The notes below the pieces were generated by a model. It was not told the origin of the DNA. It did no database searches and worked only from the letters and a program-made list of their open reading frames with translations. This document shows, piece by piece, positions 19,015 to 33,596 of a DNA stretch of 33,973 nucleotides. The DNA is taken from positions 1 through 33,973 of the forward strand of contig CAISJD010000129.1 in NCBI GenBank assembly GCA_903885605.1, given 5' to 3'. Each line of letters starts with the position of its first letter. Positions within the stretch are counted from its first letter, which is position 1. The stretch comes from an uncultured Chthonomonas sp. (lineage in GTDB: Bacteria > Armatimonadota > Chthonomonadetes > Chthonomonadales > CAJBBX01). Made by a program: the position numbers and the translations under genes.

Positions 19015-20523
19015 TCAGCCTTCAGCCGCCGGCAGTTCGACCGTCACGGTGACGCCCTCGCCCGGGCGGCTCTCCAGACGCATGGAGCCGCCATGGGCCT
19101 GCACGATGCTCCGGCAGATGGCGAGGCCCAGACCCGTGCCGCCGTGCTGCCGCGCCCGGGCCTTGTCGACCCGGTAGAAGCGCTCACAGACGTGGGGCAG
19201 GTGCTCGGGATCGATGCCCGCTCCGGTGTCGCGCAGGGTCACGACCACCTTGCCGCCGTCGCGCCGCGCCTCCACCGTGATCCTGCCGTCGGGCGGCGTA
19301 TGGCGGCCCGCGTTGTCGAGCAGGTTCGTGAAGAGGCGCGTCAGGTGCCCCGCGTCGCCCATCACCTTCTGATCGCCGCACTCCAGGCTCAGCCGCGCGT
19401 CTCCATGCGGAAAGGCGCACTCGGCGGCGTCCTCCACGATCCGGCTGAGAGGCGCCGGGCGTAGGTTCGGCGCCGCCTCGCCCGCGTCGGAGCGGGCCAG
19501 CAGGAGCAGGTCCTGGATGGTCTGGTGCATGCGCCCGGCGGCCCGGTCGATGCTCGCCACGGAGCGCCGGTGCTCGGCCGGCAGCGTCTCGTCGGCGAGG
19601 GCGAGGCCCGCGTTGGCCTTGATCACCGTGAGCGGCGTGCGGAGCTCGTGCGATGCGTCCGCGGTGAACCGCCGCTGCTGCTCGAAGGCATGCTCGATGC
19701 GACCCAGCATGCCGTTCACCGTCTCGGCCAGCGTGGCGAACTCGTCGCGGCCCGCCACCGGCAGCCTGCGGGAGAGGTCCTCGGCGCCCATGGAGGCGGC
19801 CTCGGCTGTGAGCCGCCGCAGGGGGCTGAGCATGCGGCCGGTGAGGGCCAGGCCTCCCAGCGCCGCGATGAGCAGGGCCAGCGGGGCGAGCATGAGCAGC
19901 GTCCGGTTGAAGTTGGCCACCGCCAGTCCCACGTCGCCCAGCGAGTAGGCCACCTGGACCACGGCCAGCACCGCGCCGTCGCGCTTCAGGGGCGCGTAGG
20001 CCACGCGCACATCGGTGCCGTTGCGGCGGATGGTGGCGAACGTCTGCGAACCGTTCGCCGCCCGGCTGAAGCCCGACTGCAGCCAGGCCCGCTCGCCGCC
20101 CATGGGGAGCATGGCCCGTCCAGCCAGGTCGTACACCGCCTCGCTGGCGCGCTCGGTCCACTGCGGACGCCGGCTGCCGGGCCGCCATGGACCCGGTCCG
20201 GCGAAGGGCCCGCCTCCCTTTCCTGGGCCCGGGCCGCGCCCCGGTCCGGGCGGGCGCATCTGGGAGGGTTGCCACGAGCCGCCGGCGGGCGGTTTCGTGT
20301 TCATCGGACCGTAGACCCGGAACTCCGGCGGCGGGCTCTGCCAGAACTCCTGGTGCCGCGCGATGCGGAGCCGCAGGTCGCCGTCCACCGAGGCGATGAG
20401 GTTGCGCTGGACGCTCCAGCGCAGAGCCGCGCCCAGGCCCAGCAGGATGAGCGCCAGCGCCGCCACGTTCCAGAGCGTGAGGCGGGCGCGGACGGAGGTG
20501 ATGCGCAGGGCCGCCGGCCTCAT
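19015..20523 (-). CDS. Sensor histidine kinase (CusS/QseC-like architecture)
   Basis: The protein has 502 aa; the ATG at 20521-20523 follows GAGGAGGAG and overlaps the response-regulator stop as ATGA, so the pair is coupled. Membrane segments lie at about 15-36 and 206-228 and enclose a periplasmic sensor of about 165 residues containing an unusual Pro/Gly run near residues 80-115. A HAMP region follows (LTGRMLSPLRRLTAEA). The HisKA box is FTADASHELRTPL with phospho-accepting His292. The ATPase domain shows the N box (NLLDNAGRH, Asn404), the G1 box (DTGAGI), a FYRVDKAR F box and the G2 box (GTGLGLA). All catalytic elements are intact. The stimulus is unknown. It ends seven bases from the convergent gene's stop. 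Confidence 0.95.
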   Translation of the reverse strand: MRPAALRITSVRARLTLWNVAALALILLGLGAALRWSVQRNLIASVDGDLRLRIARHQEFWQSPPPEFRVYGPMNTKPPAGGSWQPSQMRPPGPGRGPGPGKGGGPFAGPGPWRPGSRRPQWTERASEAVYDLAGRAMLPMGGERAWLQSGFSRAANGSQTFATIRRNGTDVRVAYAPLKRDGAVLAVVQVAYSLGDVGLAVANFNRTLLMLAPLALLIAALGGLALTGRMLSPLRRLTAEAASMGAEDLSRRLPVAGRDEFATLAETVNGMLGRIEHAFEQQRRFTADASHELRTPLTVIKANAGLALADETLPAEHRRSVASIDRAAGRMHQTIQDLLLLARSDAGEAAPNLRPAPLSRIVEDAAECAFPHGDARLSLECGDQKVMGDAGHLTRLFTNLLDNAGRHTPPDGRITVEARRDGGKVVVTLRDTGAGIDPEHLPHVCERFYRVDKARARQHGGTGLGLAICRSIVQAHGGSMRLESRPGEGVTVTVELPAAEG

Positions 20524-21203
20524 GGCTCCTCCTCGTGGCTCGCGCGGAGCACGTAGCCGACACCGTGCAGGGTCTGGATCAGGCTCGGCTTGCGGCCTCC
20601 GTCGATCTTGCGCCGGAGCTGGCCGATGTAGACATCCACGGTGTTGCTGTAGCTCTCGTCGTCGCTCCAGACGCGCTCGAGGATGTACTCGCGGGTCAGC
20701 GGACGCCCTTCGTGCGACGCCAGGGCCTCCAGCAGCGTGTACTCGCGCGAGGTGAGGTGCACCTCGCGGCCGGCCACGGTGACCTGCCGCGCGCCGGTGT
20801 CGATGGCCACTTCGCCCACCTGGATCACCCGCGTGCGGTGGACCCGATCGCGCCGCACCAGCGCACGCACGCGGGCCAGCAGCTCCCGCAGCTCGAAGGG
20901 CTTGGGCAGGTAGTCGTCGGCGCCCAGGTCGAGGCCCTTCACGCGGTCCTCCACGGCGTCGCGGGCGGTGAGCATGAGGATCGGGGTGGTGCGTCGGCCG
21001 GATCGAAGGCGCCGGCAGACCTCCCATCCGTTGAGCCCGGGCAGCATCACATCGAGCAGGACCGCGGCGTACTCATGCTCCTGCGCGGCCCGAAGGCCCG
21101 CCTCGCCGTCTGCCGCGATGTCCACGTCGTAGCCGCCGGCGGTCAGGCCTCGCCGCACGACCTCCGCGATGTCGGCATCATCTTCTACAATGAGTAGTCT
21201 CAT
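20520..21203 (-). CDS. OmpR/PhoB-family response regulator
   Basis: The protein has 227 aa. The receiver domain (1-120) has the acidic pair Glu7/Asp8-Asp9, phospho-accepting Asp51 in LLDVMLPG, Thr79 in LTARD and Lys101 in LPKPFEL, all as expected. The C-terminal winged helix (about 128-222) carries LTSREYTLLEALASHEGRPLT and the recognition-helix region SNTVDVYIGQLRRKID, ending with the family's TLHGVGYVL hairpin. GGGAGG precedes the ATG. It is closest in feel to CusR/QseB/MprA-type regulators, but I do not assign a name. Family members bind as dimers to direct repeats with 11-bp spacing; two such pairs lie in the adjacent intergenic region, one facing this gene and one facing the secretion operon. 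This suggests autoregulation and control of gspE. Confidence 0.95.
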   Translation of the reverse strand: MRLLIVEDDADIAEVVRRGLTAGGYDVDIAADGEAGLRAAQEHEYAAVLLDVMLPGLNGWEVCRRLRSGRRTTPILMLTARDAVEDRVKGLDLGADDYLPKPFELRELLARVRALVRRDRVHRTRVIQVGEVAIDTGARQVTVAGREVHLTSREYTLLEALASHEGRPLTREYILERVWSDDESYSNTVDVYIGQLRRKIDGGRKPSLIQTLHGVGYVLRASHEEEP

Positions 21204-21269
21204 GGCGCCTCCCAGGGCCCGGCCCGATACCTGTACGCCGCAATCCTGTCTGTAGGATAGGCCATGGAG

Positions 21270-21287
21270 ATGAAAAGTCGATGAAGG
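21270..21287 (-). promoter_or_regulatory. Candidate response-regulator operator facing the regulator/kinase genes
   Basis: Read on the minus strand, this is CCTTCAT, four bases, then TTTTCAT: two TTCAT-core half-sites with an 11-bp period, the geometry used by OmpR/PhoB-family regulators. It lies 66 bp upstream of the response-regulator ATG. It mirrors a second pair at 21315-21332. Binding is inferred, not shown. Confidence 0.5.
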
Positions 21288-21314
21288 CCGCGCGCGAGGC
21301 CCGGCCGGCCGGGT

Positions 21315-21332
21315 CTTTCATGATTCGTTCAT
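21315..21332 (+). promoter_or_regulatory. Candidate response-regulator operator facing the type II secretion operon
   Basis: CTTTCAT, GATT, CGTTCAT: two half-sites with TTCAT cores and an 11-bp period, on the plus strand, ending 67 bp before the gspE start codon. It has the same 7-4-7 layout as the pair at 21270-21287 but points the other way. No convincing -35/-10 pair is visible nearby, as is common for promoters that depend on an OmpR-family activator. Confidence 0.5.
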
Positions 21333-21399
21333 ATCCGGCGCGTCTTTATCTACAGCCGCCTGATGGGCGTAGCCGGCCGAACCCTGGGGGAAGCAGCCA

Positions 21400-22965
21400 G
21401 TGAGCGATACGATTGGGGCATTGGAGACGCCGAGTAGCCGGCAGGGCTTCGAGTGGATCGACCTGGAAGTCGTCAAGCCGACCGAGGAGGCCGTCCGACT
21501 GACGCCGCCCGAACTGGCCCTGCGGCATCAGGTCCTGCCCGTGGAACTCCGCGACGGCGTTCTCACCGTAGCGATCGGCGCCCCCACCGCACTGGCCGCG
21601 GCCGACGAAGTGGGCAAGCTCGTCGGGTACCCGACCCGCGCCGTGCTGGCCGCTCCGTCGTTCATCAGGGCGCTTATCGAAGAGATCTTCATCGAGCGCA
21701 TCCTGTCCGGCCTGCCCGACAAGGCCGACGACCAGGCCGGCGCCGAGATCGACGACACCACGGACCTCGCCGACCTGCAGAAGATGGCAGGCGAGGCCGC
21801 CGTGGTGCAGATGGTGAACCTCATCTTCGCCCAGGCCGTGCGCGACGGGGCCAGCGACATCCATGTGGAGCCCTACGAGCGGCAGGTGAAGGTCCGGTTC
21901 CGCGTCGACGGCATGCTCCGCGACGCGCTCCAGCCGCCCCGCCGCATGCACGCCGCCATCGTCTCGCGCATCAAGATCCTCGGCGAGATGAACATCGCCG
22001 AGCGGCGGCTCCCGCAGGACGGCCGCATCAAGATCACCATCGCCGGCCGCGCCATCGACGTCCGCGTGAGCATCGTCCCCACCGTCTACGGCGAGCGCGC
22101 CGTCATGCGCATCCTGGACAAGACGACCGCCATGCTGGGGCTCGAGGAGCTCGGCATGCGGCAGGACGCGCTGGCCAGGTTCCGCACCATCATCCGCGTG
22201 CCCCACGGCGTGATCCTCTCCACCGGCCCCACGGGTTCCGGCAAGTCGACCACGCTCTACGCATCGCTTCAGGAGATCTGGTCCTCCACCACCAACATCC
22301 TCACCATCGAGGACCCGGTGGAGTACCAGGTGCCCGGCATCAGCCAGATCCAGGTGCGCCCGCAGATCGGCCTCACCTTCGCCAACGGCCTCCGGAGCAT
22401 CGTGCGGCAGGACCCCGACGTCATCATGGTGGGCGAAATCCGCGACCATGAGACCGCCGATATCTCCATCCACGCGGCGCTCACCGGCCACCTCGTCTTC
22501 AGCACCCTGCACACCAACGACGCCGCGGGAGCCGTGACCCGCCTGCTGGACATGGGCGTGGAGCCCTACCTCGTGGCCTCGTCGCTGGTGGCCACCGTGG
22601 CACAGCGGCTGGTGCGGCGCATCTGCGCCAACTGCGCCCAGCCCTACGAGCCGCGCCCAGAGACGCTGGAGGCCATCGGCATCGAGGCCTCCGACCTGCC
22701 CGGCGGCACGCTGATGCGCGGCGCCGGCTGCGACCGATGCCAGCAGACGGGCTACAAGGGCCGGCACGCGCTCTTTGAGCTCTTCATCGTCGACGAGCCC
22801 ATCCGGCGGCTCACGGTGGACCGCGCCAGCTCCAACGATATGCGCGACCACGCGATCCGCCGGCAGGGCATGCGCACCCTCCTGGGCGACGGCCGCCTGG
22901 CCGTGCTGGACGGCAAGACGTCGCCGGACGAGGTGCTGAGGGTCTGCCAGAGAGAGGCCCTCTGA
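21400..22965 (+). CDS. gspE: Type II secretion ATPase GspE (PilB/GspE family)
   Basis: The product has 521 aa and is the cytoplasmic hexameric ATPase that drives pseudopilus assembly. The start is a GTG at 21400; only a weak G-rich stretch precedes it, and no better in-frame start is available. Residues about 30-115 match the GspE/PilB N-terminal domain (LALRHQVLPVEL). The ATPase domain has Walker A GPTGSGKST with Lys282, an Asp-box region (LTIEDPVEYQVPGI), Walker B with Asp and Glu in DVIMVGEIRD, and a His box (LVFSTLHTND). CANC and CDRC (C-x2-C twice, about 45 residues apart) form the usual zinc-binding element. It heads an operon in which most genes overlap. Its stop and the gspF start share one base (TGATG). 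A PilB role cannot be excluded from this gene alone, but the following gspG-K genes favour type II secretion. Confidence 0.94.
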   Translation: MSDTIGALETPSSRQGFEWIDLEVVKPTEEAVRLTPPELALRHQVLPVELRDGVLTVAIGAPTALAAADEVGKLVGYPTRAVLAAPSFIRALIEEIFIERILSGLPDKADDQAGAEIDDTTDLADLQKMAGEAAVVQMVNLIFAQAVRDGASDIHVEPYERQVKVRFRVDGMLRDALQPPRRMHAAIVSRIKILGEMNIAERRLPQDGRIKITIAGRAIDVRVSIVPTVYGERAVMRILDKTTAMLGLEELGMRQDALARFRTIIRVPHGVILSTGPTGSGKSTTLYASLQEIWSSTTNILTIEDPVEYQVPGISQIQVRPQIGLTFANGLRSIVRQDPDVIMVGEIRDHETADISIHAALTGHLVFSTLHTNDAAGAVTRLLDMGVEPYLVASSLVATVAQRLVRRICANCAQPYEPRPETLEAIGIEASDLPGGTLMRGAGCDRCQQTGYKGRHALFELFIVDEPIRRLTVDRASSNDMRDHAIRRQGMRTLLGDGRLAVLDGKTSPDEVLRVCQREAL

Positions 22966-24182
22966 TGCCCGCCGTCACCTTCAACTACACAGCGCTAGAC
23001 AGCTCCGGCGCCAAGCGCACCGGCGTGGTGGAGGCGGAGACCCGCGAGGCCGCCATCGCCCGCCTGGCCACCGAGGGCCGGTTCGTCACCGACATCGCCC
23101 AGGCGGGCTCAAGCGGCAAGCGCCATTCCGGGCACGACATCCACGGCAAGGTGGCCGCGCAGGACATGGCGGTCTTCACCCGCCGCCTCGCCGACCTGGC
23201 GCGGGCGGGACTGCCGCTGGACCGCGTCCTCCATGTGGTGGGTGAGCAGTCCGAGAGCCCCGTGCTGCAGGCCGTCTGCGCGCAGGCGCTGGAAGATGTG
23301 CGCGGGGGCCTTCCTGTGAGCCAGGCGCTGGCCAAGCACCCGAGGCTCTTCGCGGAGGTCTACACCCAGACCCTCCGCGCAGGCGAGGCCAGCGGCCAGT
23401 TCGGCGAGGTAGCGGCGCGGCTGGCGGACCTGCAGGAGAAGGAGGTCTCCCGGCGCAGCCAGATCGTCAGCGCCCTGGTCTACCCGGCGATCCTCTCGAT
23501 GACCGCGCTGGCGGTGATCACATTCCTCATGACCTTCGTCATCCCGAAGCTCTCCGGCGTTTTCAAGGACCTGGGCGGCGACCTGCCCGCGCCCACGCGG
23601 ATTCTGATCGCCGTCGCCGTCTTCATCGTGGAGAACTGGGTGGTGGTGATCAGCTCCATCGTGGCCGTCGTGGTGGGCCTCCGGGTCTGGCTCGGCACCC
23701 CGGGCGGCGCCTTCGCCAGGGACAAGGCGCTACTGAACCTGCCCGTGGTCGGCCCCGTCATCACGAAGGCTACGGTCTCGCGTTTCGCCCGCGTGCTGGG
23801 CACGCTGGTCTATGGTGGAGTGCCCATCCTGGAGGCCATCGACATAAGCGGCCTGGCGGCGGGCAACCGGCTCTTCGCGGTCAGCGCCAAGCAGGTGGAG
23901 TCCGATGTCCGCGAGGGCCGTCCCATCGCCGAGGCCATGGCCGACGCCGGCGCCTTCCCGCCGGTGCTGACGCACATGGTGGCCATCGGTGAAGAGACCG
24001 GGGACCTGCCGCTCATGCTGAGCCGCGTCTCCGACAGCCTCGATTTCGAGGTGGACACGGGCATGCGGCGGCTTGTGGCCCTGGTGGAGCCCGTCATCGT
24101 GCTCTCCATGGGTGTCTTCGTGGGCTACGTGGTCGTTTCCGTGCTGCTGCCCATCTTCCAGGCGCAGGCGCTGGTGAAGTGA
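22965..24182 (+). CDS. gspF: Type II secretion inner-membrane platform protein GspF
   Basis: The protein has 405 aa, the standard GspF/PilC length. It opens with FNYTALDSSGAKRTGVVEAET, the typical start of the family. Two T2SSF domains lie at about 65-188 and 262-390, each with the conserved F-x-R-x-L-x-x-L-x-x-A-G-x-P-L/I pattern (FTRRLADLARAGLPLD and FARVLGTLVYGGVPIL). Membrane segments are at about 168-196, 213-244 and 371-400. GspF sits in the inner membrane and couples the GspE ATPase to pseudopilin assembly. The gene begins at the last base of the gspE stop and ends 11 bp before gspG. Confidence 0.94.
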   Translation: MPAVTFNYTALDSSGAKRTGVVEAETREAAIARLATEGRFVTDIAQAGSSGKRHSGHDIHGKVAAQDMAVFTRRLADLARAGLPLDRVLHVVGEQSESPVLQAVCAQALEDVRGGLPVSQALAKHPRLFAEVYTQTLRAGEASGQFGEVAARLADLQEKEVSRRSQIVSALVYPAILSMTALAVITFLMTFVIPKLSGVFKDLGGDLPAPTRILIAVAVFIVENWVVVISSIVAVVVGLRVWLGTPGGAFARDKALLNLPVVGPVITKATVSRFARVLGTLVYGGVPILEAIDISGLAAGNRLFAVSAKQVESDVREGRPIAEAMADAGAFPPVLTHMVAIGEETGDLPLMLSRVSDSLDFEVDTGMRRLVALVEPVIVLSMGVFVGYVVVSVLLPIFQAQALVK

Positions 24183-24193
24183 GGAGGAGAGCC

Positions 24194-24637
24194 ATGATCG
24201 GGCCTACGCTGAGGCAGCTCCGTGTGGATCGCCAACGGGGAGCCTTTACGCTCATCGAGCTGCTTGTGGTCATCCTGATCCTGGGCATCCTGGCGTCGCT
24301 GGTGGTGCCGCGCGTGGTAGGCCGCACCGAGGATGCAAAGATCGCCAAGGCGGCCTCCGATATCGCCACCCTGGGAAGCGTCCTGCAGCAGTACCGCGTG
24401 GACAACGACGCGTTCCCGACATCGGACGAGGGGCTAAACGCCCTGCGGGTGCAGCCGGCCGATGCCACCAACTGGCGGGGCCCCTACACCAGCCGGGAGA
24501 TCCCGCTGGACCCGTGGGGCAACCCCTACGTATACGAGTCGCCGGGAGCGAACGGCGAGGACTTCTCGATCACCTCCTACGGCGCCGACGGCGCGGCGGG
24601 CGGCACGGCCGAGAACTCCGACATCACCAGCGAGTAG
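24194..24637 (+). CDS. gspG: Type II secretion major pseudopilin GspG
   Basis: The product has 147 aa. The ATG at 24194 follows GAGGAGGAG; an in-frame GTG 15 bases earlier lacks this. The N-terminus has a prepilin signal with Gly-Ala before FTLIELLVVILILG. Cleavage after Ala places Glu at +5, as required for pseudopilin packing, so the -1 residue is Ala rather than the usual Gly. The C-terminal half has the GspG signature: DNDAFPTSDEGLNAL, NWRGPY and PLDPWGNPYVY, the calcium-binding loop region. GspG is the main subunit of the pseudopilus. Processing would need a prepilin peptidase, which is not encoded in this window. Confidence 0.95.
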   Translation: MIGPTLRQLRVDRQRGAFTLIELLVVILILGILASLVVPRVVGRTEDAKIAKAASDIATLGSVLQQYRVDNDAFPTSDEGLNALRVQPADATNWRGPYTSREIPLDPWGNPYVYESPGANGEDFSITSYGADGAAGGTAENSDITSE

Positions 24638-24658
24638 GCGAGGAGACAGGGGATCGAC

Positions 24659-25186
24659 ATGAGGCGCAGTGCGGCAGGGCGGCGAGGCTTTACCATCATC
24701 GAGATGAACGCGGTGGTGGCGGTGCTGCTGCTTGCCACCGCGATTGTGGTTCCGAACCTGGTGATGGTCCGCCGGTCCCGTGAGCGTGACGACGTCATGG
24801 CCAAACTGGCCCGGGCGCCGATCACGGCGCTGAACACCGCCCAGAACTCCGGCGATCCGGTCCGCATGACCGTGATGGAGGATGCCCTGGTCGTGGAGCA
24901 GATGCCCATCGACGGCGAGGCGCAGGAGGTCACCCGGGTCTCGTTCGCCGACTGGTTCACGCTCGATTCACAGCAGCAGGACGGCGGCGAGATCGACCAG
25001 GGCGAATGGGAGTGGTGGGCCTATCCGGACGGCAGGGCGGCCGAGGCATCACTCACGTTCGTCGACGGCGCCGATGTCCGAACGCTGACCCTCACCAAGG
25101 AGGGGCGCGCCTACTGGCTGCGAGGCGAGCCGGAGGAGCAGGGCGAGACAGAATGGACCGCAGGGGAGATCGAGGTCCGTGAGTAG
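24659..25186 (+). CDS. gspH: Type II secretion minor pseudopilin, GspH-like
   Basis: The protein has 175 aa. The prepilin site is RRG before FTIIEMNAVV, with Glu at +5 and a hydrophobic helix to about residue 32. The remaining globular part, beta-rich and acidic, has no strongly conserved motif, which is normal for GspH. The call rests mainly on its position between gspG and gspI. The ATG at 24659 is preceded by AGGGG. The last eight bases overlap gspI. Confidence 0.8.
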   Translation: MRRSAAGRRGFTIIEMNAVVAVLLLATAIVVPNLVMVRRSRERDDVMAKLARAPITALNTAQNSGDPVRMTVMEDALVVEQMPIDGEAQEVTRVSFADWFTLDSQQQDGGEIDQGEWEWWAYPDGRAAEASLTFVDGADVRTLTLTKEGRAYWLRGEPEEQGETEWTAGEIEVRE

Positions 25187-25553
25187 GCGCAGGGGCTTCA
25201 CGCTGGTCGAGGTGCTCATGGCGGCCCTGCTGGTGGCCGTGGCGGTCACGGCCGTCATGGGAGGCCTCAGGGCACTGGGCCAGGCCGACGTGAAAGTGGC
25301 CCGCAACCAGCTCCTCCAGCGGCTCGTTACCGCCAAGGCCAACGAGGTGCTCGCCTCCACCGACCCGTCGTCGTTCGGTGACGGCGGCGACTTCACCGAC
25401 GCGGGCTACCCGGACATCACATGGACCATTGACGTGCAGACCAGCGGCGCCACCGACGTGGACGAAGTCACAGTGGCCGCAACGCTCGACGACGACGAGC
25501 AGTTCCTCACGTTCCTGCAGTATGTCCGGCCGCTGACGGCGGTGAGCGAATGA
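25179..25553 (+). CDS. gspI: Type II secretion minor pseudopilin, GspI-like
   Basis: The protein has 124 aa. The start is a GTG that overlaps gspH by eight bases, with GGAGATCGAGG just upstream. The prepilin site is RRRG before FTLVEVLMAALLVAVAVT, with Glu at +5; the FTLVEVL[MV]A pattern is typical of GspI. The short C-terminal domain fits the family length of 120-130. In the type II system GspI forms the pseudopilus tip with GspJ and GspK. Its stop overlaps the gspJ start in ATGA. Confidence 0.88.
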   Translation: MSRRRGFTLVEVLMAALLVAVAVTAVMGGLRALGQADVKVARNQLLQRLVTAKANEVLASTDPSSFGDGGDFTDAGYPDITWTIDVQTSGATDVDEVTVAATLDDDEQFLTFLQYVRPLTAVSE

Positions 25554-26278
25554 ACGCCGGAACGCGGGCACGGGCGGGGCTGACGCTGGTCGAGCTGGTG
25601 CTGGTGCTCGCCCTCACGGCCGTACTCACGGGCGCCGTCGGCTACGGCTTCGTGGCCGGCCTGGACCAGCAGCGCCGCCACACCGCCCGCCAGGCGGACA
25701 CCGACCCGGTCGCGTCGTTGGAGCGCGAGATCACCCGGCTCATCGAGGGAGCCAAGCTCACCGAGGACGCTGAGGATACGACCACCTACATGGTCGGCGC
25801 CGCCGACGCCACCGGCGATACGGGCACACTGGGCTGCGATACGCTGACCTTCACCACCACGGCAGGGGCGCCGGACTTCGGCCCGCTGCTGAGTGACGAT
25901 GACTACGAGACGCAGTACACGGTATCGGGCCCGGTCGGCGGCGTCACCGAAGTGCAGCTCGGCGGCCAGCTCCAGGGGCGAACCGAGAGTGTCTCGGGCC
26001 TGCTGATCCGCACCCAGCGCCCCTCTGACGGCGACTATACCCAGGGCGGCACGCAGCGGGTCCTCTCCGCCCATGTGGACAGCATCGGCTTCCGCTTCTG
26101 GAACGGCGCTTCCTGGGACGACACATGGGACACCGCCACCGAGCGCCGCCTGCCCGGCGCCATCCTGGTGAGCTACGTACTCGCCGATGACGCGACCGAG
26201 ACCGTGCGCTCGTTCACGGTGGCCGTACCCGCCAGCGACGTGGACGCCAACAACACCGTGACGGGGTCCGTCGAATGA
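25550..26278 (+). CDS. gspJ: Type II secretion minor pseudopilin, GspJ-like
   Basis: The protein has 242 aa. The prepilin site is RAG before LTLVELVLVLALTAVL, with Glu at +5. The length exceeds that of GspH/I and fits GspJ (about 200-240). The soluble domain is beta-rich and very acidic, with several Asp/Thr-rich turns and an FRFWNGASWDDTWDT segment, similar to the W-rich area of many GspJ proteins. It is coupled by ATGA overlaps to both gspI and gspK. Order and length support the assignment. Confidence 0.88.
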   Translation: MNAGTRARAGLTLVELVLVLALTAVLTGAVGYGFVAGLDQQRRHTARQADTDPVASLEREITRLIEGAKLTEDAEDTTTYMVGAADATGDTGTLGCDTLTFTTTAGAPDFGPLLSDDDYETQYTVSGPVGGVTEVQLGGQLQGRTESVSGLLIRTQRPSDGDYTQGGTQRVLSAHVDSIGFRFWNGASWDDTWDTATERRLPGAILVSYVLADDATETVRSFTVAVPASDVDANNTVTGSVE

Positions 26279-27513
26279 AGCGCGGCAAGGGAGCCTTTGT
26301 GCTCGTTGAGGTGCTTGTCCTCGTCGCGTGCCTCGTGGCGCTGATGGCCATGCTGGCCGCCGACCAACGCGAATCCATGCAGGCTGCGCAGAACCGGCTC
26401 AGGCTGCAGCGCGCCGACTTTGCCGCCAGGTCGGCCGTCGCGCTGGCCGTCGCCACGCTCGAGGCAGCCGACTCCAACCTCGTCACCCTGGCTGACGACT
26501 GGGCGGCCCTGGGCGACCTCGGGAATGCCGAGTACACCGTGGGCAACGCTACTTTCCGGATGGAGATTGTCGACGCCGGAGCCATGGTCGACGTCAACTT
26601 CGCCGAGGAGGAGCAACTGAACCTCCTGCCGATCGACGATGAGATGCGCGACTGCCTGCTGGACTGGCGTGAGGGAGACACCCTCGCCCGGGCCGCCGGC
26701 GCCAAGGACAGCTACTACAACTCGCTGACCCCGCCGTACAACGCGCGCCGGGGCACCATCCAGACGATCGACGAGTTACTCCTGGTCAAGGGCTGGACCG
26801 CGCGCCGCCTCTACACGACGCTCGACGAAGACCTGCGCACCGGCGTCTCCCTCGACGATGACAGCGGCAATCCCATACCGTTGGCCCGGGTCTTCACGAC
26901 CGATAGCGGCGCCCCGAACACGCGGGCCGACGGCAGCACGCGCAGCAATATTGGCTCAGGCCAGCTGAGCCCCATGTTCTTCATGCAGATGGGCGCCGAC
27001 CCCATGCTGGCCCAACGGCTGGCTGCGGCGGGGCCCTACTCCAACTTCCAGCAGCTCCTGACAACGCCCGGCGTCAGCACCGACATGGCACAGCAGCTGC
27101 TTGATGCGGTCACCTTCACCAATAGCACACGTCTACACGGAAAGATGAACGCCAACACCGCATCGCAAGCCGTGCTCATGACGCTGCCGAACATGACATC
27201 CGACATCGCCGCCAACATCGTATCGCGCCAGTCAGCCGGCCTCGCATCGCTGGGTGAACTGGCCACCATTCCAGGACTTGAGGGAAGCCTGCTCGGCGAG
27301 GTCGCCGACCGGCTGGTGGTCGGCAGCGACGTCTGGATCATCAGGGCCTATGGGTCCAGCGGCGGCCAGGGGCAGGCGGTGGAGGTGGTCGTTCGGAAAG
27401 ACAGCGATCGGGTCCGGGTGATCACCTGGCAACGGGTGCCCGGAACCGGAGTGCCGTCGTGGTGGGGCTGGAACCAAGACGCTACATACTCGACAACGGT
27501 AGGATCCACATGA
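26275..27513 (+). CDS. gspK: Type II secretion minor pseudopilin GspK
   Basis: The protein has 412 aa. It begins KRGKGAFVLVEVLVLVACL. After the hydrophobic helix comes the GspK pattern: RADFAARSAVALAVATLE, a segment around DVNFAEEEQLNLLP, LLDWRE, and IQTIDELLLVKG. Residues about 280-330 hold helix-hairpin-helix-like repeats (MNANTASQAVLMTLPNMT, and LASLGELATIPGL), the SAM-like domain of GspK. GspK caps the pseudopilus tip. Unusually for the family, Glu is kept at +5 if cleavage follows Ala, as in gspG; many GspK proteins lack this residue. The stop overlaps the next start in ATGA. Confidence 0.93.
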   Translation: MKRGKGAFVLVEVLVLVACLVALMAMLAADQRESMQAAQNRLRLQRADFAARSAVALAVATLEAADSNLVTLADDWAALGDLGNAEYTVGNATFRMEIVDAGAMVDVNFAEEEQLNLLPIDDEMRDCLLDWREGDTLARAAGAKDSYYNSLTPPYNARRGTIQTIDELLLVKGWTARRLYTTLDEDLRTGVSLDDDSGNPIPLARVFTTDSGAPNTRADGSTRSNIGSGQLSPMFFMQMGADPMLAQRLAAAGPYSNFQQLLTTPGVSTDMAQQLLDAVTFTNSTRLHGKMNANTASQAVLMTLPNMTSDIAANIVSRQSAGLASLGELATIPGLEGSLLGEVADRLVVGSDVWIIRAYGSSGGQGQAVEVVVRKDSDRVRVITWQRVPGTGVPSWWGWNQDATYSTTVGST

Positions 27514-28814
27514 AACACGGACATCACGCTCTTCCTGCGGTCGTCTGGTCGCCGGGATCGGTCAGGGCGGTCCATCCCGCCACCGGGCGCCGTCAGGCGG
27601 CCGCGAGGCTGGATGAGTTAACCCCGGTCCTGGGACGAGGCCGCAAGGTCGTCATCGGTGTGGAGCGCAGCCACGTGTTCCTGCGGGTGCTGACGCTGCC
27701 GCGGGCCGCCCGGGCCGACCTGCGCAAGATGGTGGGCGCCCAGATCGCCACGCACTTCCCCATGGCTCCCGAGGAGATCGTCTTCGACGTGGCGCAGTCG
27801 GCGGGCAAGGGCTCCGAGGGCTGCACCACGCTGGTTGCCGCCATGCGCGTCAGCGACCTCCGGGAACTCCTGGCCGCCGTCCGGTCGGCCGGCCTCGTGC
27901 CGATGCGGATCGTGCCCGCCTCCTTCGGAGCGGCCGCGCTGGCCGCCGCAGCCGGCCACCACGACGCCGTCGTGGCTGAAGCCACCGATGCCGGCCTGGC
28001 CGTGGATGTCATCCGCGACGGCCTGCCCGTGCTTGCGCGCCTGACCGCCCTGGGCGATGACGCCACCGAGGTCCGACGTACCGCAGCGGCCGCCGAGGCC
28101 GAGGGCCTCCCGGTGCTATGCGTCGGCGCTGTCGGTATGGCCGGCGGCGAGCAACTCCAGGGGCATACGGTCGACCTGTTGCCCGACGCGCCGCCCTTCG
28201 ACTTCGTCCTTCCCGAGGATAGGGTGCGCCAGGAGACGCGCGGCTCGGCTATCCTCGCGCGCTCCGCCGCCCTGGCGGCCTGCCTGGCCGTGGTCCTCGG
28301 CGTCACCGCGTGGCGCGACCGCGGCACGGCCATGGCCGACGCGGCCCGCGTGACAGGTGCGCTGACCCGCGAGACAGGCAAGCTCCGCTCGGCAGCGCAG
28401 TCCGCCACCAACCGGGCCAAGCATGCCGCCGAGGTGCAGGGCACGCTCACGGACGCGTTCGAGCCGGGGCAGCCTGTCAGCGACCTCGTGAACGTCGTGG
28501 CGGACAGCCTGCCGCAGGAGGTCTGGATCACCGGCCTCAGTGTGGAGCGCGGCAAGCCCATTCAGGTTCGCGGCACCGCGGGCAATCCCACGCAGGTGGC
28601 GGGGATCCTGGACAGCCTGGGCGGCACCCCGCGGGTGGCGGACGCCCGGCTCGTCTCGGCCAACACCAGCCGCATCGGCATGGTGCCGGTGGTGCAGTTC
28701 AGCGTATCGGCGGCGGCGGCAGGCAATCCGGCCATGCCGACGCCGCCAAAGAAGGCCGCCAAGCCCATCCGCAAGCCCGGGCAGACGGCCGGCTCGGCCG
28801 GAGGTGCGCAATGA
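27510..28814 (+). CDS. gspL: GspL-type assembly protein: PilM-like actin fold fused to PilN-like domain
   Basis: The product has 434 aa. I chose the ATG at 27510 because it forms the ATGA overlap used throughout this operon; an in-frame GTG at 27459 is possible but would overlap gspK by 55 bases. Residues about 35-240 resemble PilM (VIGVERSHVFLRVLTLP, MVGAQIATHFPMAPEEIVFDV), the cytoplasmic actin-like part that binds the ATPase GspE. A single membrane helix lies at about 247-268, followed by a coiled stretch and a periplasmic PilN-like ferredoxin fold at about 310-405 (VNVVADSLPQEVWITGLSVERG, VRGTAGNPTQVAGIL). GspL in classical systems has this same cytoplasmic-membrane-periplasmic layout. 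The N-terminus is longer than in typical PilM. Confidence 0.86.
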   Translation: MKHGHHALPAVVWSPGSVRAVHPATGRRQAAARLDELTPVLGRGRKVVIGVERSHVFLRVLTLPRAARADLRKMVGAQIATHFPMAPEEIVFDVAQSAGKGSEGCTTLVAAMRVSDLRELLAAVRSAGLVPMRIVPASFGAAALAAAAGHHDAVVAEATDAGLAVDVIRDGLPVLARLTALGDDATEVRRTAAAAEAEGLPVLCVGAVGMAGGEQLQGHTVDLLPDAPPFDFVLPEDRVRQETRGSAILARSAALAACLAVVLGVTAWRDRGTAMADAARVTGALTRETGKLRSAAQSATNRAKHAAEVQGTLTDAFEPGQPVSDLVNVVADSLPQEVWITGLSVERGKPIQVRGTAGNPTQVAGILDSLGGTPRVADARLVSANTSRIGMVPVVQFSVSAAAAGNPAMPTPPKKAAKPIRKPGQTAGSAGGAQ

Positions 28815-29377
28815 AGGACGCCGGCCATGGCCGCATAGTCTCCATCACGATCCTGGTGCTGTCGCTGCTCGTGATCGCCGCCTCCGTGGCTTCGATCACC
28901 GTGGCGCCCAAGCCCGATCCGGAGGCCGCACGGAACGCCCACCGCAAGACGCTGGCCAAGCTCATCAGTACACGCGATCAAGCGAAGGTCGACGCCGGTT
29001 TGGCCGAGAAGGCCTCCGCCAAGCGCATCTGGCCGGGCGACTCCGACGCCGTCACGTCGGCCCTCATGGCAGGCCTGACCCGTGAGGCCGAGGCCCGAGA
29101 CCTGAAGATGGCCGGTTTTCGCGCCCAGCGCCTGGTGGACTACCAGGGCATCACGGAGATGCCCTTCTCTGTGCAGGTGGTGGGCAGCTATCCCGAGGTC
29201 CGCTCCTTCCTGGCCATGCTGGACAAGCCTGGGACCCGTGTCTTGCTCCGGTCGGCACAACTGGCATCGGCCGACGCCGCCACGGATACGGTGAGCGCCA
29301 CGCTGGGCGTATCGGCGTTCATCCGGTCGGTCATCGTGCCCGCGCAGGCAGCGAAGGGGGCGAAGCGAAATGGCTAA
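28811..29377 (+). CDS. PilO/GspM-like inner-membrane assembly protein
   Basis: The protein has 188 aa. The ATG at 28811 overlaps the gspL stop in ATGA. A membrane helix lies at about 9-31 after a short cytoplasmic start, followed by a coiled region (about 40-65) and a ferredoxin-like domain with YQGITEMPFSVQVVGSYPEVRSFLAMLDK. That segment is the core motif of the PilO domain. It should pair with the PilN-like part of the previous protein to form the periplasmic side of the assembly platform. In type II nomenclature this is the GspM position, but the sequence is PilO-like. It overlaps the next gene by eight bases. Confidence 0.83.
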   Translation: MKDAGHGRIVSITILVLSLLVIAASVASITVAPKPDPEAARNAHRKTLAKLISTRDQAKVDAGLAEKASAKRIWPGDSDAVTSALMAGLTREAEARDLKMAGFRAQRLVDYQGITEMPFSVQVVGSYPEVRSFLAMLDKPGTRVLLRSAQLASADAATDTVSATLGVSAFIRSVIVPAQAAKGAKRNG

Positions 29378-29966
29378 CCGCAAGAGTCCGGTCCTCTACA
29401 TCGCGCTGGGCGCCGCGGTGATCATAGCGGGTGTCATGTTCACGACCCCGCAGAAGGCGACCCAACGCGGGGCTGTGGCGGCCAACCGGACGCGAAAGGC
29501 CGCCGACGGGGCCGCCGGCGCATCCGTCAAGTTCGCTCGGTACGCGGGAACGGGCCGCAACGCCTTCGACCCGCAGGTCGTCTCGGGCCGCACGGCGGCC
29601 TATGGTGGCCGCGCCGGGGTCGTGGGCAGCGGCGGCACCTGGCGCCTGACCGGCATCAGCGTGGTCAACGGGGCCCGCATCGCCGTCGTCGAGAACGACG
29701 CTACCAAGGAAGCGCTGGAGCTTCGTTCAGGGCAGAAGTGGGACGGCCTACTGGTTCAGTCCATAGATGGTGTTGCGGTTGCCCTGCGAGATCGTAAGAA
29801 TCATGTGACTAAGCTGAGCTTCCCCGATCCGGCCGAAGCGGTCGGCGGCGACATCAAGAACGAACCCGTCCGGCCCGTCCCGGCCGCAACGGGTGTACAG
29901 CCTCTGCGTATCGACCTCTCCGCACTGCGGGGGCGCGGCATGGCTATTGAAAGGAAGGCGAACTGA
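29370..29966 (+). CDS. GspC/PilP-like inner-membrane to secretin connector
   Basis: The protein has 198 aa. One membrane helix lies at about 7-26, followed by an Ala/Lys/Arg-rich linker and a small beta domain at about 80-150 (WRLTGISVVNGARIAVVEND, LRSGQKWDGLLVQSIDGVAVALRD). This is the homology-region layout of GspC and PilP, which bridge the inner-membrane platform and the secretin N0 domain. The central pattern with G-D/N-x-A-x-V and a following W-x-V-x-x-I is shared by both families, so I do not choose between them. No PDZ domain is present, unlike many GspC proteins. The gene ends one base before the secretin start. Confidence 0.75.
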   Translation: MANRKSPVLYIALGAAVIIAGVMFTTPQKATQRGAVAANRTRKAADGAAGASVKFARYAGTGRNAFDPQVVSGRTAAYGGRAGVVGSGGTWRLTGISVVNGARIAVVENDATKEALELRSGQKWDGLLVQSIDGVAVALRDRKNHVTKLSFPDPAEAVGGDIKNEPVRPVPAATGVQPLRIDLSALRGRGMAIERKAN

Positions 29967-29967
29967 A

Positions 29968-32724
29968 ATGAGATCGCTCACACTCCTGGCGGGAGCCTCC
30001 CTGTTCCTGCTGGCGGTAGCGCCGTCGCCTGCGCAGATGGACCTCTTCGGTGAGGACGAGACGCTCTGGTCGACGCACCGGCTGAACCCCAAGGTGAAGG
30101 TGACGCTGGACTTCCGAAATGCCAGCGTCGACGCCGTGCTGCAGGTGCTGAGCCGGGCCAGCGGCATCCCCATCGTCAAGGACCCGTCGCTCACGCAGCC
30201 GATCACCCTGCAGAGCCCCAAGCAGCAGACCCTCCGTGACGCCTTCTCCATGCTCAGCGTGGCCCTGGGCCTCCGCGGCTACGAGCTGAAGCGCGACGGC
30301 GCCATGATGGTCGTCAAGCAGAAGCAGCAGCGGGGCAGCGGCGGCAGCGGCCGCGGCGGCTCGTCCGGTACGAGCGGCTTCGACATGTCCTCCATGGCGT
30401 CGATGTTCGGCTCAAGCCAGCAGACGAGCACCTTGCTCAAGGTCTACAACATCAAGTTCGCCAGCGCCAGCCAGGTGGCCCGCGTCATCAACGACGTCTT
30501 CGCCCTTACGGGCAACCAGGGCTTCGGCATGTTCGGCATGCCAGGGATGATGGGCATTCCTGGAATGCCGGGCGGCATACCCGGGATGCCCGGCGGCGCC
30601 CCGGGCGGGGCTCCCGGAGCGGCTCCGGCCACGCCGGGCGGCGCACCCCCGGCCACGCCGACGCCCGGTCAGCGCACCGATAGCGGGCGAATCGTCCCGG
30701 CCGTGAACCAGGCGCAGGGCGGTGATGCCGGCTCGAACCTCGAGCTGGTGGCACAGCGCGGCGGAGGCATGTTCGGCGGTGGCGGCGGAATGTTCGGCGG
30801 CGGAGGAGGCATGTTCGGCGGAGGCATGGGCCAGTTCGGCCGGCGCGGCGGCGGTAGCAGCCAGTCGTCCACGGTGCGGGCCTCATCCGACGACTACAGC
30901 AACACGGTCATCGTGAACGCCTCAGCCACTGACCACGAGCAGATCGCCAAGCTGATCCTCGAGATCGACAAGGAGGCCGACAAGGCGCAGGTCTCCAAGG
31001 TCTACCCGCTGGAGTACGCCACGGCCTCCGACCTCACCTCGATCGTCATGAACGTGCTCAACGCCAACGCCAGCCGTGGCCGCGGCTACACCGGCCAACA
31101 GAACACCGGCGGCGGCGGCATGTTCGGCCAGATGTTCGGCGGCAACCGCATGGGCGGCAGCGCCGCCTCCAGCGGCGTCGGCACGGTGGCTGCCGAGACG
31201 CGCACCAACTCGCTCATCGTCACCACGGTGCCGGACAATCAGGAAGTCGTCCAGCAGGTCATCAAGGAGCTGGACAAGCCGATCAAGTTCGAGACCGGCG
31301 CCTTTGTGATCAGCCTGAAGAACGCCCGCGCCGACACAGTGGCGTCGCTCATCAACAGCTCGTTCGGCGGAGGCCGCGCGGGCACGACCACCAACCGGAC
31401 GGGCACCGGTTCGACCCGGACCAACACCGGGGCCACCCGCAGCACCAATAACCGGAACACCGGCGGCCTGCCGGGCCTGAACGCACCTGCCTCGGTCGCC
31501 GATGTTGAGCCAACCGAGGTGCTGACGGACGAGGAGATCGTGGATGCGGTCCGCCGCGGCGAGGATCCCCGAGCATTGGCGGCCGCTCGCGCACAGGGCA
31601 TGGGTGGCTTCGGCGGGATGATATCGCAGATCATGGGCGGCGGCGGCGGCAACCGCTCCTCGCAGACCTCCACGCAGAACGCCGTCAGTTACGACAGCTC
31701 CGGTCGCGTGGTCACCTACCAGAACCTCTCCGGCACCGTCTCCGCCATCGCGGACACCAACACGAACAGCGTCATCATCGTCACCTCGCCGCAGAACCGC
31801 GAGATCCTGCAGAAGATCCTGGACCAGCTGGACCGTATCCCCGAGCAGGTCATGATCGAGACGCTGATCGTCGAGGCGAGCCTCGACGCCACCAACAAGC
31901 TCGGCGTTGAGTGGAACTTCAAGGGCGGCAGCTCGGCCATCACGACGGCCTTCGGTCTGGCGGCGGACACGGCGCAGCCCCAGGGCATGCGCTACACCCT
32001 TACGGCCAAGGAGTACTCCGGTTTCCTGGGCGCCATCAAGACCGACAACCGCTTCGAGGTGCTCAGCACGCCGCGCATCTTCACCAGCAACAACTCCGAG
32101 GCCGAGATCAACATCAGCCAGAGCCTGCCCTACGTCACCAACCAGCGGGTGGACTCGAACGGCAACTACTCCTACAGCTACTCGTTCATGGATGTAGGCA
32201 TCGTCCTCACCGTCACGCCGCGCATCACCTCGAACGGCTATGTGACGATGGACGTGACCCAGACCGCCAACGACTTTGTGCGGTACACCGACTTCAACGC
32301 CCCGGTTGTCAACCAGCGCGAGGCGCAGACCACCGTGAGCGTTCGCGACGGTGAGACCGTGGTGCTGGGCGGCATCATCAAGGGGAGCCTCTCCTCCACG
32401 GTGAACAAGATCCCGATCCTGGGCGACCTCCCGCTGCTGGGCGCCGCCTTCCGGTCCACCAACCAGACGAAGTCGAAGACCGAGCTCCTCGTCTTCCTCA
32501 GCCCCAAGGTGGTCAGGGATGAGGCCGACGCCCGCGCTCTGCGGGAGCAGGTGGAAGGGCAGCTGCAGCCCAAGACGCTTGAGAAGGTGCTCAACTCGCG
32601 GCTGGGCCAGCCGACCGCGGCGAAGGACGAGCCGGCCAAGCTCGTGCCGCTGAAGGATGGGCCGGCCAAAGATGCACCTGCCGACGCTCCCAAGGATGGC
32701 GCCAAGGTCCCTGGTAAGTCGTGA
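29968..32724 (+). CDS. gspD: Type II secretion secretin GspD with Gly/Met/Phe-rich insertions
   Basis: The product has 918 aa. The ATG at 29968 follows AAGGAAGG and opens a signal peptide (LAVAPSPAQ end). N0 lies at about 36-112 (VTLDFRNASVDAVLQVLSRAS), then several N-type repeats (VYNIKFASASQVARVIND; VYPLEYATASDLTSIVMN; VISLKNARADTVASLIN), then the secretin domain at about 625-850 (VMIETLIVEASLD; VNKIPILGDLPLLGAAF; TELLVFLSPKVV). Three long low-complexity insertions interrupt the N repeats: about 185-300 (GMPG and MFGGGG units), 365-408 and 465-585. The C-terminus is a Lys/Asp/Ala/Pro tail. The protein forms the outer-membrane channel. Family members usually have 600-750 residues; the extra length comes from these insertions. 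No obvious pilotin-binding S-domain is seen. Confidence 0.95.
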   Translation: MRSLTLLAGASLFLLAVAPSPAQMDLFGEDETLWSTHRLNPKVKVTLDFRNASVDAVLQVLSRASGIPIVKDPSLTQPITLQSPKQQTLRDAFSMLSVALGLRGYELKRDGAMMVVKQKQQRGSGGSGRGGSSGTSGFDMSSMASMFGSSQQTSTLLKVYNIKFASASQVARVINDVFALTGNQGFGMFGMPGMMGIPGMPGGIPGMPGGAPGGAPGAAPATPGGAPPATPTPGQRTDSGRIVPAVNQAQGGDAGSNLELVAQRGGGMFGGGGGMFGGGGGMFGGGMGQFGRRGGGSSQSSTVRASSDDYSNTVIVNASATDHEQIAKLILEIDKEADKAQVSKVYPLEYATASDLTSIVMNVLNANASRGRGYTGQQNTGGGGMFGQMFGGNRMGGSAASSGVGTVAAETRTNSLIVTTVPDNQEVVQQVIKELDKPIKFETGAFVISLKNARADTVASLINSSFGGGRAGTTTNRTGTGSTRTNTGATRSTNNRNTGGLPGLNAPASVADVEPTEVLTDEEIVDAVRRGEDPRALAAARAQGMGGFGGMISQIMGGGGGNRSSQTSTQNAVSYDSSGRVVTYQNLSGTVSAIADTNTNSVIIVTSPQNREILQKILDQLDRIPEQVMIETLIVEASLDATNKLGVEWNFKGGSSAITTAFGLAADTAQPQGMRYTLTAKEYSGFLGAIKTDNRFEVLSTPRIFTSNNSEAEINISQSLPYVTNQRVDSNGNYSYSYSFMDVGIVLTVTPRITSNGYVTMDVTQTANDFVRYTDFNAPVVNQREAQTTVSVRDGETVVLGGIIKGSLSSTVNKIPILGDLPLLGAAFRSTNQTKSKTELLVFLSPKVVRDEADARALREQVEGQLQPKTLEKVLNSRLGQPTAAKDEPAKLVPLKDGPAKDAPADAPKDGAKVPGKS

Positions 32725-32765
32725 TGCCGGCTGAAGCCAACCGGCAGAAAGGACGGACACCTGAC

Positions 32766-33596
32766 ATGCGAACCACACGTTGGCTGGCCGCTCTGGCCCT
32801 GACAGCCGTCGCAACCGCGGCCTCGGCACAGGGACCAGGGATGGGCCCAGGACCCGGCATGGGCGGCCCTGGGCAGATGGGAAGGATGCCCTTCGTCATG
32901 GGCACGGTCGCATCGATCGACCGCGCCACCAGCACCATCATGGTGAACTCGCCCTTCGGCGGCAACGAGACGGCGGTACGCGTCAACGCGCAGACCAAGG
33001 TCGCGGGTCAGGTGACCATCCAGGTCTCCGACCTGAAGGTTGACGATCAGGTCCAGATCCAGGGCATGCCCACCGGCCTGACGGCCAGCTCCATCAACGC
33101 GGGCCAGATGCCCGACTTCCTGCGCATGAACATAGGCCGCGGCCCCGGTGGCCAGCCGGGCGGCCCCGGGCAGGGCGGTCCGGGCCAGGCCGGCCAGCCC
33201 GGTCAGGCGGCGCAGGGCCAGGGCAACCGCGGCCAGCAGCCGCAGCAGCCCGCCATGGCGTTCGGATCGGTGACGGGGAAGGTCTCTTCCACCTCGCCGC
33301 TGACCATCGCGGTCAGCAAGGACGTCTCGGTCATCATCAAGCTCGCGCCTGACGCCAAGATCACGAAGATCACCACCGTCACGCTGGCAAGCCTCAAGGT
33401 GGGCGATCGCATCATGGCCATGGGCGCCGAGGCCGATGACGGCGTCTTCCTTGCCACCGGTATCGGCGTCAACCTGAGCATGGGAGGCATGGGTGGCGGC
33501 CGCGGCGGCATGGGTGGCTTCGGCATGGGCGGCCCGGGCATGATGGGCGGCGGCCCCGGTGGTCCAGGCGGCGGTGGCAACCGGCCTCCGCAGTAG
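32766..33596 (+). CDS. Secreted Gly/Met/Pro-rich protein with two DUF5666-like domains
   Basis: The protein has 276 aa. I chose the ATG at 32766 for its signal peptide (RTTRWLAALALTAVATAASAQ); the ATG at 32724, touching the secretin stop, would add 14 polar residues. Residues about 42-108 (GTVASIDRATSTIMVNSP, KVDDQVQIQG) and 164-235 (GSVTGKVSSTSPLTIAVS, KVGDRIMAMG) are two copies of a small OB-like beta domain resembling DUF5666. Gly/Pro/Gln-rich runs flank and separate them, and the C-terminus is almost pure Gly/Met/Pro. It is the last gene of the secretion operon, 41 bp after gspD and before a strong hairpin. The function is unknown; the shared Met-Gly composition with the secretin insertions suggests a periplasmic or outer-membrane partner. 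Confidence 0.78.
   Translation: MRTTRWLAALALTAVATAASAQGPGMGPGPGMGGPGQMGRMPFVMGTVASIDRATSTIMVNSPFGGNETAVRVNAQTKVAGQVTIQVSDLKVDDQVQIQGMPTGLTASSINAGQMPDFLRMNIGRGPGGQPGGPGQGGPGQAGQPGQAAQGQGNRGQQPQQPAMAFGSVTGKVSSTSPLTIAVSKDVSVIIKLAPDAKITKITTVTLASLKVGDRIMAMGAEADDGVFLATGIGVNLSMGGMGGGRGGMGGFGMGGPGMMGGGPGGPGGGGNRPPQ

Follow-up and report, generated by a model that had tools for sequence, protein, structure and literature searches.

To our knowledge, the regulation of type II secretion outside the well-studied bacteria is largely unknown. We examined a 33,973-nucleotide stretch of DNA from an uncultured Chthonomonas sp. (here referred to as the window), in which a type II secretion operon lies divergent from a two-component system, with two short repeat pairs between them (Table 1). 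The question raised by this locus is whether these pairs are sites of the adjoining response regulator and, if so, whether they serve its own gene, the secretion operon or both.

Table 1. Features of the regulator-gspE locus, with positions in the window
Feature	Position	Strand	Remark
Histidine kinase (HAMP, HisKA, HATPase_c), heavy-metal sensor kinase-like	19015..20550	-	Profile matches; exact start uncertain
OmpR/PhoB-family response regulator, CztR/SilR/CopR-like	20520..21203	-	Profile matches
-10-like hexamer TATCCT, regulator promoter	21254..21259	-	Exactly 10 nt after second TTCAT
Regulator-facing predicted operator TTCATCGACTTTTCAT	21270..21285	-	Two TTCAT half-sites, 11-bp period
Conserved dyad AGGCCCG-N6-CGGGTCT	21297..21316	.	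Between the two operators, from three-species comparison
gspE-facing predicted operator TTCATGATTCGTTCAT	21317..21332	+	TTCAT-N6-TTCAT match, 16/16 kept in three species
Candidate gspE -10 TATCTA (TATGTA in congeners)	21347..21352	+	14 nt after second TTCAT
gspE, type II secretion ATPase	21400..22965	+	TIGR02533 above cut-off
gspF, gspG, pseudopilins, J-, K-, PilN-, PilO-like proteins, gspD secretin	22965..32724	+	
DUF5666 protein, last gene of presumed secretion operon	32721..33596	+	

The regulator contains Response_reg (PF00072, E 6.7e-29) and Trans_reg_C (PF00486, E 5.1e-26) domains, both above cut-off, and its assignment to the OmpR/PhoB family in the first-pass annotation of this DNA holds. 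Its best NCBIfam models were CztR/SilR/CopR and RppA, both below cut-off. With the former (TIGR01387), the closest model, it scored 228.7 bits (cut-off 279.2); with the PhoB equivalog TIGR02154 it scored 197.6 bits (cut-off 296.2), and it was far under the cut-offs of the CpxR and BaeR models. As a quick tree gave the window's regulator no robust placement among its relatives, we speak of a subfamily rather than of orthologs. The divergent genes were identified as a type II secretion operon, with GspE reaching 633.6 bits for TIGR02533 (cut-off 630.25) and the GspD secretin 359.8 bits for TIGR02517 (cut-off 351.35).

The gap between the regulator and gspE (21204-21399) is 196 bp long. Just as first described, it contains two TTCAT pairs with an 11-bp period, which face away from each other; their distances to the predicted start codons are 66 and 67 bp. 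They had been read as 7-4-7 repeats (CTTCATC-GACT-TTTCATC on the minus strand and TTTCATG-ATTC-GTTCATA on the plus strand); what is conserved as the core is the TTCAT pentamer with its period, the outer bases of the 7-mers being variable. Exactly two TTCAT-N6-TTCAT matches are present in the window, even with one mismatch allowed, and the earlier observation that the pair precedes none of its other genes was borne out. Shuffled sequences gave an expectation of 0.19 matches in the window at up to one mismatch, and two matches were reached in 1 of 100 shuffles.

Over the whole 5.6-Mb genome we detected three exact copies, two of them being those in the regulator-gspE gap, and 0 copies of the reversed-pattern control. 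The third exact copy sits within long open frames, without a promoter-like hexamer. Nearly all of the 46 one-mismatch copies are likewise within long open frames, and a -10-like hexamer is positioned as expected at only one of the 46, which is again in an open frame. Since the operator is found in a promoter context of its own genome only in the regulator-gspE gap, the arrangement looks like a dedicated local switch. The complete mirror-image arrangement was identified in 3 of the 41 genomes searched, namely those of the window's species and two congeners, both of which keep the divergent regulator-gspE order. The three species agree at all 32 operator columns (16/16 per pair) and at 130 of the 164 columns in the remainder of the gap (79%), the latter figure being somewhat lowered by a one-base indel near the regulator start, as the comparison was ungapped. 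The congener version of the dyad between the operators, AGACCCG-N6-CGGGTCT, differs by one A-T to G-T change; this dyad may form a hairpin or be bound by a further protein.

On the regulator side, we searched the 300 bp before each of 83 subfamily regulators from the phylum, including the window's own and those of the two congeners. The exact pair was present upstream of 25 of them, and a pair with at most one mismatch upstream of 38, leaving 45 regulators for which it was absent at that threshold within the 300 bp. Every other spacing from 0 to 15 gave an exact count of 0 or 1 in the same set, and 2 of 80 generic OmpR-type regulators (a control set mostly from other phyla) had the exact pair. 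Conservation of the pairs, on which the first-pass proposal depended, is thus found both in the genus and across the subfamily. Of 31 subfamily sites (near-copies left out), 22 have a TANNNT hexamer starting exactly 10 nt past the second TTCAT. The spacer columns of these 31 sites show no conserved hexamer at the would-be -35 position. The composite of pair and -10, at up to two mismatches, was detected at 43/83 loci, compared with 0.35 expected from shuffles, and the window's regulator-side site is a perfect instance of it.

Given the GC-rich dyad lying between the pairs, one could take the repeats for an accident of sequence, or for an inverted repeat with a structural role (a hairpin or terminator, for instance), with no regulator binding to them. 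This is contradicted by the cross-family conservation, the strict 11-bp period and the fixed -10 phase, and we consider it extremely improbable. The TTCAT repeat is very probably the regulator's own docking site.

In the PhoB-type layout, the regulator replaces the -35 contact at the promoter. The regulator side of the gap shows this layout of an activated promoter, with the repeats in place of the -35 and at a fixed distance from the -10. Since the operator is found at the same place across the subfamily, with the -10 at a fixed phase, the autoregulation predicted in the first-pass annotation is strongly supported, and autoregulation of the response regulator is very likely. Once phosphorylated by the kinase, the regulator would dock as a head-to-tail dimer on each of the two TTCAT-N6-TTCAT sites. 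The pair facing its own gene takes the place of the -35, with the -10 following 10 nt downstream, and a regulator bound there would recruit RNA polymerase in the manner of PhoB, resulting in positive autoregulation.

The mirror pair would extend this control to the divergent gspE operon, on which the same regulator would most likely have an activating effect. The gspE-facing -10-like hexamer is weak and off the usual phase in the three species, at +14 and not +10, and a TA...T hexamer at +10 of this pair is absent in all three. Perhaps, then, the regulator acts as a repressor, its binding keeping RNA polymerase from one promoter or from both: sites overlapping the -35 region can also repress, and the gspE site of the window does not have the phase expected for activation. 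The regulator-facing site, however, matches PhoB-type activation in both position and phase, and the spacer columns contain no conserved -35 hexamer, which makes repression quite unlikely.

Alternatively, both pairs could serve the regulator promoter, the far one as an upstream or looping site, with gspE having an unrelated promoter of its own. The lack, at the gspE-facing pair, of the +10 hexamer seen elsewhere would agree with this, as would the absence of the pair from most gspE orthologs. The far pair, however, points to gspE and is fully kept in the genus. In addition, 6 of the 27 non-congeneric gspE orthologs examined, all in other families, have the pair at up to one mismatch (exact at L280 and L283, with one mismatch at L278, L279, L284 and L285). 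A hexamer follows at +10 in L278, L279, L280 and L283, compared with 0.03 loci expected from shuffles, and one base closer in L284 and L285. In these genomes, close relatives of the regulator (sought at E <= 1e-75), where found, are on other contigs or megabases away, so that the presence of these sites is not explained by an adjoining regulator promoter. Divergent pairs in other subfamily loci, which face non-gspE genes at variable distances, also fit separate promoters. It is therefore unlikely that the two pairs serve autoregulation only. The genome G008 has a second gspE-type gene (56% identical) bearing a pair, followed by TATACT.

Direct control of the gspE operon by the regulator, as first proposed, is likely, with moderate support from the genus (3/3) and from the gspE orthologs of other families; our reservation comes from the window's own -10-like hexamer, weak and at +14. 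We consider it quite probable that the pairs are tandem-dimer operators of the adjoining regulator, which would activate its own promoter and, most likely, the gspE operon. The regulator would thereby probably control both itself and the export machine. We infer from the sequence that the regulator is phosphorylated and binds the pairs, in which direction it acts, and what its signal could be, namely a heavy-metal-like one or envelope stress.

The same genome encodes a second subfamily regulator (G000:C65, locus L163), 62% identical to that of the window. Back-to-back GTCAT-N6-GTCAT pairs lie about 80 and 140 bp upstream of its gene; in its promoter, the GTCAT-N6-GTCAT is followed by TAGGCT at +10, while the divergent GTCAT pair faces an exported protein. 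Given this identity and the same operator layout, another regulator such as this paralog might be the main binder of the TTCAT pairs; its own site, however, is GTCAT, and its recognition helix is different (VDVRIGLLR, compared with VDVYIGQLR in the window's regulator), with R at a position where TTCAT regulators have Y, H or F. We regard such binding as very unlikely. The comparison suggests TTCAT and GTCAT paralogs with separated specificities, which, coming from one lineage, is a lead rather than a result.

Several known systems resemble this locus. In Escherichia coli pho-box promoters, at which PhoB acts, direct repeats that recur every 11 bp precede the -10, as found here, and Pseudomonas aeruginosa PhoB controls the Hxc type II system, a response regulator over type II secretion as predicted here. 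The PhoB half-site is TGTCA, however, rather than TTCAT, and the window's regulator scores below the PhoB model cut-off. Envelope stress systems of the CpxR/BaeR type go with Spy/CpxP proteins, which recalls the exported LTXXQ-family genes faced by the operators of the regulator's relatives, although the window's regulator is far below the CpxR and BaeR cut-offs. The 7-4-7 direct-repeat layout is shared with Mycobacterium tuberculosis PhoP, which binds as a tandem dimer to 7-bp direct repeats with a strict 4-bp spacer, but has another half-site sequence and other targets (PMC4832192). The Synechocystis CopR of the CopRS system was reported to bind TTCATN4-5TTCAT, with a match to its site between the divergent nrsRS and nrsBACD operons (PMC4182526). 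The likeness to CopR extends to the CopR/RppA-like regulator group, the TTCAT direct repeats and the divergent region beside a two-component system (PMC4182526), whereas the spacer there is N4-5 and not N6, and the known targets are metal efflux genes rather than a secretion operon. The operator here is of an already known kind, with N6 separating the pentamers, and its target is new. As a separate observation, an OmpR-type regulator of the cyanobacterium Komarekiella (L108) is preceded, at a distance of about 298 bp, by TTCATCTTAATTTCAT, which resembles the reported CopR site.

A divergent pair in the opposite orientation was found at 12 of the 83 regulator loci (exact) or 24 (up to one mismatch). 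Genes divergent from subfamily regulators often encode exported Gly/Pro-rich proteins, several of which match Pfam LTXXQ (Spy/CpxP family). In the window's genus, the secretion operon thus appears to sit in the slot used by relatives for envelope proteins. The LTXXQ genes of the window's own genome have no TTCAT-N6-TTCAT operator within one mismatch. At L159, the divergent gene encodes a protein with DUF4382 and DUF5666; DUF5666 also occurs in the protein encoded at the end of the window's presumed secretion operon.

A large regulon in one genus (G008 and G010), considered from their 38 and 37 exact pairs, was rejected. A 7-bp-spacer control, which is in codon phase, gave 41 and 40, and therefore raw genome counts alone are not evidence. 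We relied only on sites that had a -10 and lay outside long open frames. In G008, an LTXXQ gene, a pseudopilin and a membrane-fusion-like protein have sites outside long open frames upstream of them.

Tentatively, and with a little less than even confidence, we propose that the regulators of this subfamily, throughout the phylum, use TTCAT-N6-TTCAT for autoregulation and govern a regulon of envelope and secretion functions comprising LTXXQ chaperone-like proteins, pseudopilins, an efflux-type protein and type II secretion ATPases. The window's genus would have the secretion operon in the divergent slot that is often LTXXQ's, and the paralog would have switched to GTCAT after duplication through a change in its recognition helix. 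A short defined operator here predicts regulator, site, promoter phase and targets in a poorly studied phylum, and the tie of secretion to a system whose relatives adjoin Spy/CpxP-like proteins suggests a response to envelope or metal stress.

Two further observations were made. A sulfate adenylyltransferase-like gene has a TTCAT pair in both species of the genus of G008 and G010 (L236 and L268). At L276 (G004), the gspE ortholog comes directly after a gene whose end resembles an LTXXQ protein, and secretion and LTXXQ genes may be in one operon there.
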